A DNA stretch of 64,000 nucleotides, taken from assembly GCF_017908595.1 (NCBI RefSeq), contig NZ_JAGKTL010000001.1, forward strand, positions 62,001 to 126,000, written 5' to 3'. This stretch comes from Rhodothermus bifroesti. Lineage in GTDB: Bacteria; Bacteroidota; Rhodothermia; Rhodothermales; Rhodothermaceae. Made by a program: the position numbers and the translations under genes. Under the pieces are notes generated by a model. It saw nothing but the letters and a program-made list of their open reading frames with translations, was not told the DNA's origin and searched no databases. This document shows positions 44,998 to 52,005 of the stretch, in pieces (positions within the stretch are counted from its first letter, which is position 1; every line of letters starts with the position of its first letter).

Positions 44998-45405
44998 ATG
45001 ACCTACAGCGCGCCATTTTTGGCCCTCTTTGCCCAGCATTTCCGCTGGGCCGACTGGGAAGCCTTGATCCAGCAACAGGGATGGACCATCGACCGTCCCT
45101 ACCGCAGCCGTCATCCACTGTTTCCAGAAATCATCTATCCCATCGACTATGGCTTTATCCACGGCACCCAGAGTAGCGATGGACAGCCGATAGACGTGTT
45201 TATCGGCCATGGGAATCAAGGACTGGTAGGCGCCATCCTAACGATCGATCGCCGCCAGAGCAAACGCGAAGTCAAGCTGCTCTACAACTGCACCCCGGAA
45301 GAGATCTACCTGGTCAACGGCTTTATTAATTTCAACCGTCAGCTCTTGGAAGGTTTCTTGGTCTTGCGCTACCCGATGGTGTCGCTTTGGGCATTGTCCT
45401 CTTGA
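44998..45405 (+). CDS. Short, divergent family-I inorganic pyrophosphatase-like protein
   Basis: A 135-residue protein beginning at ATG 44998. Residues 44-69 carry the pyrophosphatase core: EIIYPIDYGFIHGT followed by SDGQPIDVFIG. Compared with the E. coli enzyme, Asp61 and Asp66 match two of the three central metal aspartates, but the third is Gln63. The second acidic cluster is altered (Asp84, Glu91, Lys93). At 135 residues it is about 40 shorter than usual and lacks the N-terminal barrel strands. It may be a reduced phosphatase, an altered-specificity enzyme or a non-catalytic homologue. It follows aspS, whose reaction makes pyrophosphate. The 3' end overlaps the convergent speE by 37 bases. 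Confidence 0.75.
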   Translation: MTYSAPFLALFAQHFRWADWEALIQQQGWTIDRPYRSRHPLFPEIIYPIDYGFIHGTQSSDGQPIDVFIGHGNQGLVGAILTIDRRQSKREVKLLYNCTPEEIYLVNGFINFNRQLLEGFLVLRYPMVSLWALSS

Positions 45406-46295
45406 AACGGTGGCGCCGCTACTTCAAAAAGGCGTTGCACAAAACTGGGCAAAGCAAAAGCTGCGCGGTGCAGCGTTGCATTGTAATAGCGGAGCTGCTC
45501 GGCAAATGGGGCAAGCCGGTCAACCGCTCGCTTAAAATCAAAATGTTCGACAGGATGCAGCCGTTTGCTGGCTAGCGTAAACGACCAGAGCCCCATAGGA
45601 TAGGTCGGAATATGAGCTAAATACATGTACACGCGACCAAAAATGCGGCCTAGCATAGCATAAGCAGCTTGAATAGAGCGCTGAAACGTAGGATCAAAAG
45701 GCGACTCGCTTTGCGTAACCAGAATGCCGTCGGCTGTCAAAATCCGCGCGCAATCGCGATAGAACGCCTCGCCAAACAAACCCTCGGCAAAATCCACAGG
45801 ATCGGTCGCATCAACGATAATGAGGTCATAGCTGGCCGCTTGGGCCTGTTGCACAAAGGCTACACCGTCGGCTACATGGATGCGCGCTCGGGGGTCATCG
45901 AAGGCCACACTAAGCGCTGGAAAAAACGCGCGCGAAGCCTCAATGACGACCTCGTCAATTTCAACCAGGTCGACCTGCTCGACGGTCGCGTGGCGCAATA
46001 CTTCCCGTAGCGTACCCCCATCGCCTCCCCCTACGATCAACACCCGACGGGGATGCGGCAAAAGACACAGTGCCGGATGGGCAATCATTTCATGGTAAAC
46101 AAATTCATCACGCTCGGTCAGCATCACCAAACCATCGAGCGTCAGCAGGCGACCAAAGGCATCGGTCTCCAAGACCTGCACGCGTTGATAAGCACTCTGA
46201 CGATCAAACAGGACGCGTTCAACCCCAAAGGTGATGCCTGTGCGTTGTTGCCAAAATTCGGTGTATTGCAACTGATGTTGTTTGGGTGAGGCCAT
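45369..46295 (-). CDS. speE: Spermidine synthase (polyamine aminopropyltransferase)
   Basis: Transfers the aminopropyl group from decarboxylated S-adenosylmethionine to putrescine or, in thermophiles, other amines. The 308-residue protein has the N-terminal YQRVQVLETDAFGRLLTLDG segment, the cofactor loop VLIVGGGDGGTLREVLRH, the gate-keeping EIDEVV, and the catalytic DATDP with its aspartates. ATG 46295 is preferred over an in-frame TTG two codons earlier. The upstream speD makes the donor; a terminator-like hairpin between them may limit read-through. Confidence 0.95.
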   Translation of the reverse strand: MASPKQHQLQYTEFWQQRTGITFGVERVLFDRQSAYQRVQVLETDAFGRLLTLDGLVMLTERDEFVYHEMIAHPALCLLPHPRRVLIVGGGDGGTLREVLRHATVEQVDLVEIDEVVIEASRAFFPALSVAFDDPRARIHVADGVAFVQQAQAASYDLIIVDATDPVDFAEGLFGEAFYRDCARILTADGILVTQSESPFDPTFQRSIQAAYAMLGRIFGRVYMYLAHIPTYPMGLWSFTLASKRLHPVEHFDFKRAVDRLAPFAEQLRYYNATLHRAAFALPSFVQRLFEVAAPPFQEDNAQSDTIG

Positions 46296-46319
46296 AGGCA
46301 ATGCTGAAAGCTAAGACGG

Positions 46320-46394: not shown

Positions 46395-46790
46395 TTAAGC
46401 TGCAACCACTTCTTCGACCACAGGCTTGTGCGGCACGCGCTCTGGAAAGAGCCCGCGTTTAAGCTCCATACTCGACACATTCCGTGCCCTGAACCGCTCT
46501 TCCAAGTAGCGCTGGATGACCCAAGGGTCAATGGTTTCGCCGCAAGTAAAAATGTCCACAGCGGCATAGCCGTGCTCGGGCCAGGTATGGATCGCTACAT
46601 GCGACTCGGCAATAACCACAACGCCGCTGACGCCGTGAGGACTGAAGGAGTGAAACGTGTCGGTGATGACGGTAGCACGGGACCGCCGGACACCTTCGAT
46701 GAGAATTTCACGGATTAACGCTTCATTGTTGAGCACCTCCCGGTCGCAGTTGTAAAACTCGACCAAGATCTGCCTTCCGAGTGCTTGCAT
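46395..46790 (-). CDS. speD: S-adenosylmethionine decarboxylase proenzyme
   Basis: Makes the aminopropyl donor for polyamine synthesis. The 131-residue proenzyme is of the short bacterial type that self-cleaves between Glu62 and Ser63 in AESHVAIHTWPEHGYAAVD, with Ser63 becoming the pyruvoyl cofactor; His68 and Cys83 (FTCGE) are the processing and catalytic residues. It has a strong ribosome site (GGAGGG, 6 bases before ATG). A long, hairpin-rich leader region lies upstream. speE is next on the same strand. Confidence 0.96.
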   Translation of the reverse strand: MQALGRQILVEFYNCDREVLNNEALIREILIEGVRRSRATVITDTFHSFSPHGVSGVVVIAESHVAIHTWPEHGYAAVDIFTCGETIDPWVIQRYLEERFRARNVSSMELKRGLFPERVPHKPVVEEVVAA

Positions 46791-47632: not shown

Positions 47633-47721
47633 GGCATTTTGCTTTATGGCGCTCGTTTCCCTTGTCCTACCCTTAGGGGTTGACGGTTACCATTCCCCAC
47701 GAAACGTCCTATAGAACTGCT

Positions 47722-49650
47722 ATGTCTGTTGAAACGCGTGTTCGTTATGGCCGTCGCGAACAGGAGCTCTCCTGGGAGCTGGTGCTCAAGCGCAACAGCA
47801 TTGAGCGCCTTAAGCAAGAGCGGCCACCCTTGCACGTAGTAGAGGAATTGCCTGAGCTGATTGCGCGCGGCTACGAAGCAATCCCCGAAGAAGATATCGT
47901 CCGCCTTTACTGGTATGGCATCGCGCACGACAAGCCCAAAATCGGCACCTTTATGGTACGCCTTAAGGTGCCAGGTGGACTGCTGCGCCCGGACCAGCTG
48001 CGGGCTATTGGTGAAATTGCTGGCCGCTACGGCCGCGACTACGGCGAGCTGACTACGCGCCAGGGCATCCAGCTTCACTGGGTAGCCATGGACAAGCTGC
48101 CCGAAGTGCTGGAGGCCATTGCCCGTGCAGGCCTAACCACTGTTGGGGCTGAAGGCGACACGGTGCGCAACATCACCAGTTGCCCTGTCAACGGGATTAA
48201 CCCTGCCGAGCTGTTCGATGTCCGCCCAGTCATCGAAGCAGCAGCCCGTTTCTTCTGGGGGAATCCGGAGTACTCAAACCTACCGCGTAAGCACAAATTC
48301 ACGATAAGTAGCTGCCCCTATCAGTGCAATGCACCAGAGATTCACGACATCGCGCTAATCGGGGTGCACAAAGAGGGGCGCGTTGGTTTTGCCGTTAAGG
48401 TTGGCGGTGGACTCTCAGCCACGCCGCGCCTAGCACGTGACCTAGGCGTGTTTGTCCCTGTCGAAGAGGCTGTCGAAGTCCTGGCGGCCATTACCGACGT
48501 ATGGCAACAAGACTTGCGCTACCGCATCAGCCGGGCCAAGGCTCGCATCAAGTTTTTGGTGGACGATTACGGCCCAGAGGGCGTGCGCCGATTGGTCGAG
48601 GAGCGGCTGGGGCGTAAGCTCGAAGATTTTCGCGCGCCCGATCCGCTTCCGGGAGGAAATCACCTGGGCGTTCATCGTCAAAAACAGGAGGGCCTGTGGT
48701 ATGCTGGCTTTCCTGTGCCTTCAGGACGCGTCACAGGCACGCAGCTGCGCCAGATTGCCGATGTGCTGGAAGCCGTAGGGGGTGACATTCGCTTTACGCG
48801 CGAACAAAACTTCATTTTGGGGAACCTGCCTGAAAGCCGGCTCACATGGGTTTTAGATCGGCTTCGGGAGATTGGCTTTCCCATTGAGCGGCATCGCCTC
48901 TATGGCACCTCGACGGCGTGCACCAGCCACCAGTTCTGCAATTACTCTGTGGCTGAAACCAAAGAAAAACTGGACGAAATCATTGCTGCGCTTGAGGCCC
49001 ACTACGGCGATGCGATTCAAGACCTAACGATTTATATGGATGGCTGCCCGCATGCCTGCGCACACCACTGGGTGGGCGACATCGGCTTGCAAGGCACGCG
49101 CACAGCCGGTCCTAACGGCACAAAGATCGAAGCCTACGATGTCACGTTACGTGGCGGGCTGGGGGTACATGCTGCCATTGGTCGCCCCATCCTTCGCCGC
49201 ATTCCGTCCGAGGAGATCAGCGCAGCAATCGTACGTCTGGTAGGCTCTTGGCTCCAAGAGCGCCAGCGCTTGGGCAACCACTATACGTTTCAGGCTTTCT
49301 GCGAAGCACACGCCAACGAGGAGCTTCAGGCGATAGCCCTAGGTGAAGTTGTTCCCGAACCAGAAGCAGTGCAAGAGGTGAGTCTCATTCGCATCCCAGG
49401 GCCACTGCTGGAGCTGACCGAAGGTAGCGACGTGGTGGAGGTTAAAGCGCCTACCGTGCGTGTTGCACTAGAACAAGCTGGCCGGCGCTATCCCAAACTC
49501 AAAGCCGCAGTACTTACGCCCGAAGGCCAGCTCAACGAAGCGTTCAACCTATACCTCAACGAAGAAGACATCCAAAGCCTTCAGGGACTAGACACACCGC
49601 TAAAGCCAGGGGACGAGTTGCTCATTCTCATCGCAATGTCCGGGGGCTAA
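47722..49650 (+). CDS. Ferredoxin-type sulfite/nitrite reductase fused to a C-terminal ThiS/MoaD-like sulfur-carrier domain
   Basis: Reduces sulfite to sulfide (nitrite possible) with siroheme and a 4Fe-4S cluster. Numbered from ATG 47722, the protein has 642 residues. Two reductase half-domains are visible: KIGTFMVRLKVPGG... with SSCPYQC, and the second with Cys400/Cys406 (CTSHQFC) and Cys442/Cys446 (GCPHAC), the cluster and siroheme ligands. cysH directly downstream favours sulfite as substrate. Residues about 556-642 are extra. They show the beta-grasp pattern ending FNLYLNEEDI, DTPLKPGDELLILI, and a terminal AMSGG. This is the signature of ThiS/MoaD/CysO carriers, whose C-terminal Gly-Gly becomes a thiocarboxylate. 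An upstream in-frame ATG (47680) is less likely. Confidence 0.93.
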   Translation: MSVETRVRYGRREQELSWELVLKRNSIERLKQERPPLHVVEELPELIARGYEAIPEEDIVRLYWYGIAHDKPKIGTFMVRLKVPGGLLRPDQLRAIGEIAGRYGRDYGELTTRQGIQLHWVAMDKLPEVLEAIARAGLTTVGAEGDTVRNITSCPVNGINPAELFDVRPVIEAAARFFWGNPEYSNLPRKHKFTISSCPYQCNAPEIHDIALIGVHKEGRVGFAVKVGGGLSATPRLARDLGVFVPVEEAVEVLAAITDVWQQDLRYRISRAKARIKFLVDDYGPEGVRRLVEERLGRKLEDFRAPDPLPGGNHLGVHRQKQEGLWYAGFPVPSGRVTGTQLRQIADVLEAVGGDIRFTREQNFILGNLPESRLTWVLDRLREIGFPIERHRLYGTSTACTSHQFCNYSVAETKEKLDEIIAALEAHYGDAIQDLTIYMDGCPHACAHHWVGDIGLQGTRTAGPNGTKIEAYDVTLRGGLGVHAAIGRPILRRIPSEEISAAIVRLVGSWLQERQRLGNHYTFQAFCEAHANEELQAIALGEVVPEPEAVQEVSLIRIPGPLLELTEGSDVVEVKAPTVRVALEQAGRRYPKLKAAVLTPEGQLNEAFNLYLNEEDIQSLQGLDTPLKPGDELLILIAMSGG

Positions 49651-49675: not shown

Positions 49676-50482
49676 ATGGCACGCCAACCGCTGTTTGACG
49701 ACCTGGAGATTGGAGAAATTGCATTGCAATTGGATGACCAGGAGCCCGAAGACGTAATTGCCTGGGCCCTAGAGACTTTTGACGAAAACCGCATCGCCAT
49801 CGTCACGGCCCTTCAGGCCGATGGTATGGTGATTCTGGACATGGCCTACCGTATCAAGCCTAACATTCGGGTGATGACGGTCGACACCGGACGCCTGCCT
49901 CAGGCTACTTATGACTTCTATGAGCAGGTGCGCACGCGCTATCCCAAGGCCCGGTTTGAAATCCTTTTTCCAGACTACCACGAGGTTGAAGAACTGGTGC
50001 GGCGACACGGCGTCAACCCGTTCTATAAAAGTGTCCCTCTGCGCTTGCTGTGCTGCCACATTCGCAAGGTGCGGCCGCTTATCCGAGCACTCAACCACCT
50101 AGACGCCTGGTTCACCGGCCTGCGCCGTGACCAGTGGGCCTCACGGGCAGCTATCCGAAAGGTCGAAATCGACCATGATCATGACGGCGTCATCAAGATT
50201 AATCCCTTAGCGGACTGGACAAAAGAAGACGTCTGGGCCTACATCGAGGAATTTGACGTGCCCACGCATCCGCTCTACGCCGAGGGCTACACGAGCATTG
50301 GCTGCGCACCATGCACACGCCCCATTCAGCCAGGTGAAGACGAACGTGCCGGCCGTTGGTGGTGGGAAACCAACGCGCCTAAGGAATGTGGCATCCACTG
50401 CCCCATCGAAACTGGGGGCTTCGAGCACGAAATGGAAGCCATCGTCGGCCACGGACACAGCACAAACGGTCACGCACACTAA
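49676..50482 (+). CDS. cysH: Assimilatory adenylyl-sulfate (APS-type) reductase
   Basis: Reduces activated sulfate to sulfite, feeding the upstream sulfite reductase. The 268-residue protein has the PAPS-reductase fold (VTALQADGMVILDMAYR, MTVDTGRLPQATYDF). Cys126-Cys127 (LLCCHIRK) and Cys210/Cys213 (GCAPCTRP) are the four ligands of the 4Fe-4S cluster that marks the APS-using type, and Cys238 in ECGIH is the catalytic cysteine. A His-rich tail (GHGHSTNGHAH) ends the protein. It lies 25 bases after the reductase and six bases before the next gene, in one operon. Confidence 0.95.
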   Translation: MARQPLFDDLEIGEIALQLDDQEPEDVIAWALETFDENRIAIVTALQADGMVILDMAYRIKPNIRVMTVDTGRLPQATYDFYEQVRTRYPKARFEILFPDYHEVEELVRRHGVNPFYKSVPLRLLCCHIRKVRPLIRALNHLDAWFTGLRRDQWASRAAIRKVEIDHDHDGVIKINPLADWTKEDVWAYIEEFDVPTHPLYAEGYTSIGCAPCTRPIQPGEDERAGRWWWETNAPKECGIHCPIETGGFEHEMEAIVGHGHSTNGHAH

Positions 50483-50488
50483 AACGCT

Positions 50489-50947
50489 ATGCCCTTAACT
50501 ATCCCTGAAGCCGCTCAGGAGCCGCTGCATGTGGAGCTGGCGGCCTTCGTTGCCTCACTCCACGACGCAAGCACCCGCCAGCGTTACCAGCGGCTCCTTG
50601 ATGCCGTCGCTACAGGCCAGGTCGAAGACCAAGCTCTCGAAGAAGCCCTGGAGCGTTTTCTGGAGATTGCCTTGCAGACAGGGCGCATTCGCCAGCAACA
50701 CGGCGCGCACGAAGAAAAAGCCTTACGGGAGCTGTTTCTCCAAACCCGCCGTGGTAGTCAGCTTCGGGCTGCCCTCCAGCAGGTCAACGAGGCGCTCCGC
50801 GCGCTGCAAGGGCACACGTTGCGCGAGCTGACCTTCCTTCCCCACAATCCGGGCACTTACCGCCTGATGCTGCGCACGGACCAAGTCCAACTCACGTTGG
50901 AAATCAATGGACAAGGCGTTTGGGTTGAAAATCTAGCCGTGGGCTAA
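50489..50947 (+). CDS. Unknown 152-residue protein in the sulfur operon
   Basis: I do not recognise a family. The protein has no signal peptide, no membrane helix and no cysteine. Residues 1-105 are predicted helical and acidic or glutamine-rich (LEEALERFLEIALQTGRIRQQ), and the last 45 residues look like a small beta sheet (GTYRLMLRTDQVQLTLEINGQGVWVENLAVG). It starts six bases after cysH, and its stop overlaps the next start (TAATG), so co-translation with the sulfur genes is clear. A partner or adaptor for one of the reductases is a guess from position only. Confidence 0.75.
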   Translation: MPLTIPEAAQEPLHVELAAFVASLHDASTRQRYQRLLDAVATGQVEDQALEEALERFLEIALQTGRIRQQHGAHEEKALRELFLQTRRGSQLRAALQQVNEALRALQGHTLRELTFLPHNPGTYRLMLRTDQVQLTLEINGQGVWVENLAVG

Positions 50948-52005
50948 TGGAAGCCTTTATTCCTTACATACAGGCCGTAGGCCGCGGTGAAAAACTTAAG
51001 CGCGACCTAACACGCGAGGAAGCGCGGCAAGCCCTAGAGCTCATCTTGGCAGGCAAGGCCACACCTGCCCAAATAGGTGCCTTTCTCATCACACAACGGG
51101 TTAAAGGCGAGACCGCTGAAGAAATCATAGGCTTTGTCGAAGCAGCTCGGGCTGTCTGCCATCAGCTTTATCCCAAGCTTCCCGACTTGCTGGATTTGGG
51201 CACCCCTTACGATGGCAAGGCACGCACGCCTCAACTGGCCGTTGCGATCGCGCTGATTACGGCCGCTGCGGGTCAGCCCGTGGTGCTGCATGGCGCACCT
51301 GACGTTCCTACCAAACGTGGCATTACGCCAGCCCATGTGCTTAGTGCTTTAGGCATCCCAGCCGATCAGCCTCTGTCGACGGTTGCTACCCAGCTTGAAA
51401 CCCTAGGTATTGGCTACCTACACGCGCCGCGCTTTGCCCCAGCTTGGCATGCCCTGACCCCTATCCGCCAGCAGTTTGGGCTACGTACAGCACTCAACAC
51501 GGTCGAAAAGCTGCTCAATCCTGCCAATGCCACTCGCTGCGTAGTCGGATTTTTTCACCGCAATTACCTGCTGCGCATGCGTCCGGCCATTGGTCGGCTT
51601 TTTCCAGGAAGCTGGCTGATTCAGGGCATCGAAGGCTCTATTGAGTGCCGTGCAGGACGCACAACCCGCCTCTACCCTGCCGATGCGGAAGGCAAACCCC
51701 TTGTGATTGAAGCCCCTCGGCTAGGGTTTGCTACATCGGACGACACCGTAGTGCCCCCTGATCCCCAGCTGCACGCTGAAGTGACCCAATCGATTCTGCA
51801 GGATCGCCCTTCGCCCTGCCGGGATACGGCTCTGCTTACTGCCGGGGTGTTGCTCTATTTAAGTGGCCGCGTCGATCGCCTAGCCGACGGGCTAGGGCAG
51901 GCGCGCGCGGTCTTGGCCGAAGGCAAAGCCCTCCGGCTGCTGGCCGACTGGCGGGCACTGTCGCAGAGGACGCCTTATCCCACAGAAGCTTCAGCCGCAA
52001 CGTGA
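50947..52005 (+). CDS. TrpD2/YbiB-like glycosyltransferase-family-3 protein
   Basis: A 352-residue protein related to anthranilate phosphoribosyltransferase. The N-terminal helical domain (LTREEARQALELILAGKATPAQIGAFLITQRVKGET) is well conserved. The catalytic loops are not: the usual GTGGD is DLGTPYDGKA and KHGNR is replaced by LHGAPDVPTKRG. That pattern points to the YbiB/TrpD2 group, which is not a tryptophan enzyme and has been linked to nucleic-acid binding, rather than to true TrpD. Its place in a sulfur operon is unexplained. The 3' end overlaps the convergent gene by 31 bases. Confidence 0.85.
   Translation: MEAFIPYIQAVGRGEKLKRDLTREEARQALELILAGKATPAQIGAFLITQRVKGETAEEIIGFVEAARAVCHQLYPKLPDLLDLGTPYDGKARTPQLAVAIALITAAAGQPVVLHGAPDVPTKRGITPAHVLSALGIPADQPLSTVATQLETLGIGYLHAPRFAPAWHALTPIRQQFGLRTALNTVEKLLNPANATRCVVGFFHRNYLLRMRPAIGRLFPGSWLIQGIEGSIECRAGRTTRLYPADAEGKPLVIEAPRLGFATSDDTVVPPDPQLHAEVTQSILQDRPSPCRDTALLTAGVLLYLSGRVDRLADGLGQARAVLAEGKALRLLADWRALSQRTPYPTEASAAT

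Follow-up and report, generated by a model that had tools for sequence, protein, structure and literature searches.

A conserved fusion of a CysO-like domain to a probable sulfite reductase in Rhodothermus and other bacteria

A siroheme reductase gene with a C-terminal carrier domain

Within the window, that is, the whole 64,000-nucleotide stretch of DNA analysed here, from the heat-loving bacterium Rhodothermus bifroesti, a gene for a NirA-type siroheme reductase continues in frame into a ThiS/MoaD-family domain and is followed by cysH. The features of this locus are listed below, together with an operon elsewhere in the genome that encodes candidate partner proteins.

47722..49650, + strand: fused (probable) sulfite reductase gene, 642 aa with a C-terminal ThiS/MoaD-family (CysO-like) domain
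47722..49344, + strand: NirA-type siroheme/4Fe-4S sulfite reductase part, residues 1-541
49345..49386, + strand: flexible linker, residues 542-555, 14 aa, with low pLDDT and weak constraint
49387..49647, + strand: predicted beta-grasp sulfur-carrier domain, residues 556-642
49642..49647, + strand: terminal Gly-Gly, the expected adenylation/thiocarboxylation site, with synonymous codon variation and the residues kept
49676..50482, + strand: cysH, APS/PAPS reductase, immediately downstream after a 25-base gap
50489..50947, + strand: 152-aa protein with no Pfam match, third gene of the sir-cysH operon
L012 4887-7842, - strand: CysM-like/JAMM/CysO-like/MoeZ-type E1 operon, on a different contig from the fusion

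Counted from the first TTG, the open reading frame spans 47680-49650 (+); this TTG lies in frame, 42 bases upstream of an ATG. We took the ATG at 47722 as the start, which matches the starts of the orthologues and gives 642 residues. Translation from this position places nucleotides 49387-49650 exactly at residues 556-642 plus the stop codon, as a first-pass annotation had them, and the protein closes with ...LLILIAMSGG before the stop, in agreement with the claim of that annotation that the domain terminates exactly in Gly-Gly. The tail alone matches the whole Pfam ThiS model (PF02597, positions 1-76) with 4.1e-12 and 46.9 bits, against a curated cut-off of 22.5. This match and the beta-grasp model described below bear out the proposed fusion of a ThiS/MoaD/CysO-type domain to the reductase.

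The reductase part matches Pfam NIR_SIR (3.8e-49) and NIR_SIR_ferr (5.1e-40). Its two ferredoxin-like half domains, the siroheme/4Fe-4S domain and the four cluster cysteines are all present, and these cysteines (C400, C406, C442, and C446) are unchanged across 20 aligned relatives. Mycobacterium tuberculosis NirA (1zj8) is the nearest solved relative, both by sequence and by fold, and the best NCBIfam matches are nitrite-reductase/NirA models, which fall below cut-off. Since cysH is adjacent, and since the one remaining NIR/SIR paralogue of the genome lies in the nitrate-assimilation cluster, the gene context marks the fused enzyme as the likely sulfite reductase of this genome.

Homologues of the 152-residue protein are found at L057 4191-4652, L058 4185-4643, L059 4205-4681, and L111 5584-6033. 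In Rhodothermus, Chloroflexota, Armatimonadota (L088), and a Planctomyces plasmid, its gene takes the third place, behind sir and cysH, regardless of whether the reductase is fused, and the protein looks like a helper of sulfite reductase or APS reductase. In the unfused close relatives that share this order, from Chloroflexota and the Planctomyces plasmid, no free carrier gene lies between the three genes; just downstream of the unfused reductases on the plus strand in Chloroflexota (L061-L064, L066, L069, L071), cysH comes next and no free carrier gene was found. In Rhodothermus, the end of the 152-residue gene is overlapped by the gene for a TrpD-like protein of the anthranilate phosphoribosyltransferase family (50947-52005, +). 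Upstream of the fusion gene, a spermidine synthase gene adjoins one for S-adenosylmethionine decarboxylase (45369-46301 and 46395-46790, -), an ordinary polyamine pair.

The tail is predicted to adopt a CysO-like fold

The first-pass annotation had proposed a structure prediction of the tail. An AlphaFold model, for which 17 related sequences served as input, shows a predicted beta-grasp fold with a mean pLDDT of 89, which rises to about 95 inside the domain; the linker and the last residues are disordered. In a full-length AlphaFold model both parts are confident, with low confidence at linker residues 544-551 and at the last three residues. The top match of the tail among PDB folds is M. tuberculosis CysO (3dwg_C; E 2.9e-8, TM 0.85 by target length), followed by Amycolatopsis orientalis CysO (4n6e_B; E 8.2e-8, TM 0.90), and the next are a Thermus MoaD-related protein and SAMP1. 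A sequence search with the tail returned 4n6e as the best match, along with 1v8c and 3dwg, the same families as in the fold search. By sequence and by modelled fold, CysO is the closest known carrier to the fused domain.

The appearance of SAMP1 structures among the best fold matches, the closest NCBIfam models (SAMP1 and MoaD-archaeal, both below cut-off) and the JAMM protease encoded in the genome would also suit a tail that acts as a docking or regulatory ubiquitin-like tag, which might keep E1, CysM or JAMM close to the reductase or allow the reductase to be joined to targets through the Gly-Gly, in the manner of archaeal SAMPs. We consider such a function improbable: CysO outranks SAMP1 in both sequence and fold matches, the genomic company of the fusion is that of sulfur assimilation, and no E2/E3-like or conjugation gene was noticed in the vicinity of the fusion.

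Conservation and origin of the fusion

A search of other genomes for the same fusion, also suggested by the first-pass annotation, found it in Rhodothermus, Chloroflexota, Bacterium HR24, and Armatimonadota, which rules out a restriction to Rhodothermus. The 17 orthologous fusions comprise seven from Rhodothermus, including that of the window, four from Chloroflexota and that of HR24, and five from Armatimonadota. Identity to the window protein is 88-90% in the other Rhodothermus, 62-73% in Chloroflexota and HR24, and 63-66% in Armatimonadota. As a single-frame fusion recurs across 17 sequences, a sequencing, frame or chance artefact is ruled out; the fusion of the carrier domain to the reductase is real and conserved. 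It is also rare, being present in 4 of the 400 Chloroflexota genomes sampled and, among 247 genomes sampled from its own phylum, in no genus besides Rhodothermus.

Besides a tail fold other than beta-grasp, which the model above contradicts, free loss of the Gly-Gly among homologues had been named as an observation that would refute the carrier proposal, and it did not occur either. All 17 orthologous fusions retain it, 15 of them as a bare C-terminus, and the tails of two Armatimonadota proteins extend beyond it, ending in GGGA (L088) and GGAC (L090). The last two glycines are invariant among 14 aligned fusions, and the penultimate Gly stays constant between Rhodothermus genomes while its codon differs (GGG, GGT, GGA, GGC). 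Within Rhodothermus, dN/dS is about 0.067 in the carrier domain, 0.045 in the reductase, and 0.42 in the linker, which measures 11-17 residues in the other fusions versus 14 in the window protein. In Rhodothermus, the carrier domain experiences strong purifying selection. The constraint figures indicate that the domain is selected for, without telling its function. The fusion is very probably a working one. The rarity of the fusion and the existence of close unfused relatives that work without the domain would be in line with a functionless relic of an accidental read-through, but this is hardly credible, as it is largely refuted by the contrast in dN/dS between domain and linker (0.07 versus 0.42) and by a Gly-Gly that is invariant in 17 fusions from several phyla.

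We calculated a tree of 51 reductase sequences, among them 15 fused orthologues and one more fused protein, L091, which comes from a further Armatimonadota genome. The 15 orthologues form a single clade with a support of 100/100. L091 (1049-2929) is placed far outside this clade, beside an unfused reductase; this distant sulfite reductase carries as its tail a ThiS-like domain of smaller size (Pfam ThiS, 3.4e-8), in which SGG is followed by eleven further residues, and a second reductase frame lies immediately downstream. Its position implies that fusions of a carrier to sulfite reductase arose at least twice, and the tree points to one origin for the orthologous fusions and one independent fusion in L091. 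The Rhodothermus fusion clusters with those of Chloroflexota, and this grouping, together with the absence from the rest of the phylum, suggests that it was acquired by horizontal transfer. Among the best plasmid hits there was no plasmid-borne fusion; their matches end at or before query residue 541.

Candidate partner genes elsewhere in the genome

The genome contains four ThiS-family genes: ThiS in the thiO-S-G-E-D thiamine operon, MoaD beside MoaE, a free CysO-like carrier, and the fused domain. With a dedicated ThiS and MoaD at hand, which share 30% and 27% identity, respectively, with the fused one, the tail is unlikely to serve as the thiamine or molybdopterin carrier.

The first-pass annotation had suggested looking for a MoeB/ThiF-like activating enzyme, a CysM-type synthase or a JAMM protease next to the fusion. 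All three are present in the genome but do not adjoin the fusion gene, which shares no operon with cysM and JAMM (mec+) and has cysH as its neighbour; they are encoded in the separate L012 operon, which has a free carrier of its own. The E1, the only one in the genome, is a MoeZ-like ThiF with a C-terminal rhodanese domain, and the JAMM protease has an intact HxH-x7-S-x2-D motif. The free CysO-like carrier of this operon ends in GGKSR, so trimming would be needed.

An E1 gave a strong match in all 13 fusion genomes searched (12 with the orthologous fusion and one with the L091 fusion), a JAMM protease is present in 3 of 3 fusion genomes tested, and CysM-type and CysO-like genes co-occur in most of the clusters inspected. 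Free CysO-like carriers are mostly extended past the Gly-Gly, which implies a need for trimming in most of them, whereas a bare Gly-Gly is the usual ending of the fused carriers. In the Chloroflexota that have the fusion (L167 4422-8662, L168 4127-9273, and L174 3847-8263), several ubiquitin-like carriers share one operon: the cluster encodes two free CysO-like proteins, an E1 with a CysO-like domain fused to its N-terminus, and two enzymes of the CysM type.

A possible route for sulfur

In ThiS, MoaD, and CysO, an E1 adenylates the terminal Gly, which then receives sulfur as a thiocarboxylate (PMC3227635). From the fusion, the fold, the conserved Gly-Gly, the selection, the single E1, and the presence of JAMM and CysM-type genes, we infer how the tail might be charged here, from which sulfur source and for which acceptor, and whether sulfur might be channelled. 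In keeping with the known roles of their families, CysH would provide sulfite, and the siroheme centre would reduce it to sulfide. The terminal Gly of the tail would be adenylated by the single E1, and sulfide from the siroheme, locally concentrated through the tether, would turn the adenylate into a thiocarboxylate. A CysM-type PLP enzyme would then move the carrier sulfur to activated serine, after which the JAMM protease would free cysteine. According to work cited in PMC11323500, E. coli MoaD was thiocarboxylated in vitro by millimolar sulfide.

On balance, we lean towards a working CysO-type carrier that is tethered to the reductase and operates broadly through such an E1/CysM/JAMM cycle. 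The main doubts are that the E1, JAMM, and CysM genes lie away from the operon of the fusion and that the partner operon already has a free CysO-like carrier, so that the pathway would be complete even without the fused one. In addition, close unfused reductases that have the same operon around them, with 46-60% identity, manage without the domain.

The carrier could also work but be charged by persulfide from the rhodanese domain of the E1, fed by a cysteine desulfurase, in which case the fusion would merely co-express or co-localise the two parts, with no transfer in cis. The sole E1 indeed bears such a domain, MoeZR, an enzyme of the same type, charges MoaD and CysO (PMC3227635), and the long, disordered linker implies no fixed docking. 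However, persulfide charging gives no reason why the carrier should sit on sulfite reductase over any other protein, and the second, independent fusion to sulfite reductase in L091 suggests that the pairing matters; we therefore think it rather unlikely. A stricter form of the tethered-carrier cycle is self-charging in cis, whereby sulfide formed at the siroheme would attack the tethered Gly-Gly adenylate before it escapes, with little or no free sulfide. We regard this as possible but doubtful.

Comparison with known systems

The closest domain belongs to the CysO/CysM/Mec+/MoeZ pathway of M. tuberculosis, all four parts of which occur in the genome of the window, in the L012 operon. CysO of M. 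tuberculosis is a free protein, whereas Rhodothermus has an extra carrier fused to sulfite reductase. Krishnamoorthy and Begley reportedly found in 2011 that the adenylate of Wolinella succinogenes HcyS is charged with sulfide from sulfite reductase in the HcyS/HcyD/HcyF pathway to methionine. In HcyS, an additional Ala forms the C-terminus, which JAMM takes off before the carrier is used, and the acceptor enzyme is MetY. Unlike in the fusion described here, carrier and reductase are separate proteins in that system, and the window protein, ending in GG, has no extra residue of the HcyS type; extensions are found only in L088 and L090. DsrC presents its C-terminal arm to the dissimilatory sulfite reductase DsrAB, and 2v4j, a structure of DSR in complex with DsrC, is among the fold matches of the reductase part. 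The likeness to the fusion is an analogy only, as DsrC is a cysteine-using, unfused, respiratory protein without a beta-grasp fold.

The architecture itself has been known since 2006, when Iyer, Burroughs, and Aravind described sulfite reductases of Nocardioides sp. and Acidothermus cellulolyticus to whose C-terminus ThiS is fused (PMC1779556). The present fusions resemble those in having a C-terminal ThiS/MoaD-like domain on sulfite reductase in a sulfate-assimilation setting. The earlier fusions, however, were from Actinobacteria only, and their class of operon also contained genes for JAB, E1, and SirA (PMC1779556), whereas those found here are from Rhodothermus, Chloroflexota, and Armatimonadota, and the E1 and JAMM genes are located elsewhere. 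The MoaD-MoaE, ThiS-ThiG, and MoaD-MoeB fusions likewise join a carrier to a functional partner (PMC1779556, PMC11237513), but those partners are acceptor or activating enzymes, while here the partner is the sulfide-producing enzyme. The first-pass annotation had seen in the fusion a different entry route for sulfur, which is an overstatement: thiocarboxylate routes with free carriers are known for cysteine (CysO) and methionine (HcyS), and the fusion was published in 2006.

New are the finding of the fusion in Rhodothermus, Chloroflexota, and Armatimonadota, the invariant Gly-Gly with its measured constraint, and the second, independent fusion. Our search for later literature on the fusion, largely non-subscription, gave only the 2006 paper and no experimental study of such a protein. 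As of 2011, the physiological sulfur source of CysO was described as unknown (PMC3227635), and with a CysO-like carrier attached to a sulfide-making enzyme, the idea that sulfite reductase itself supplies the sulfide for charging can be put to a direct test. If carriers are indeed charged in this way, the map of sulfur assimilation would gain a step, and it would become clear how sulfide can be handed on in cells without being set free. Should charging in cis hold as well, a single protein would relay sulfur from sulfate assimilation to carrier chemistry, an arrangement that would have evolved at least twice.
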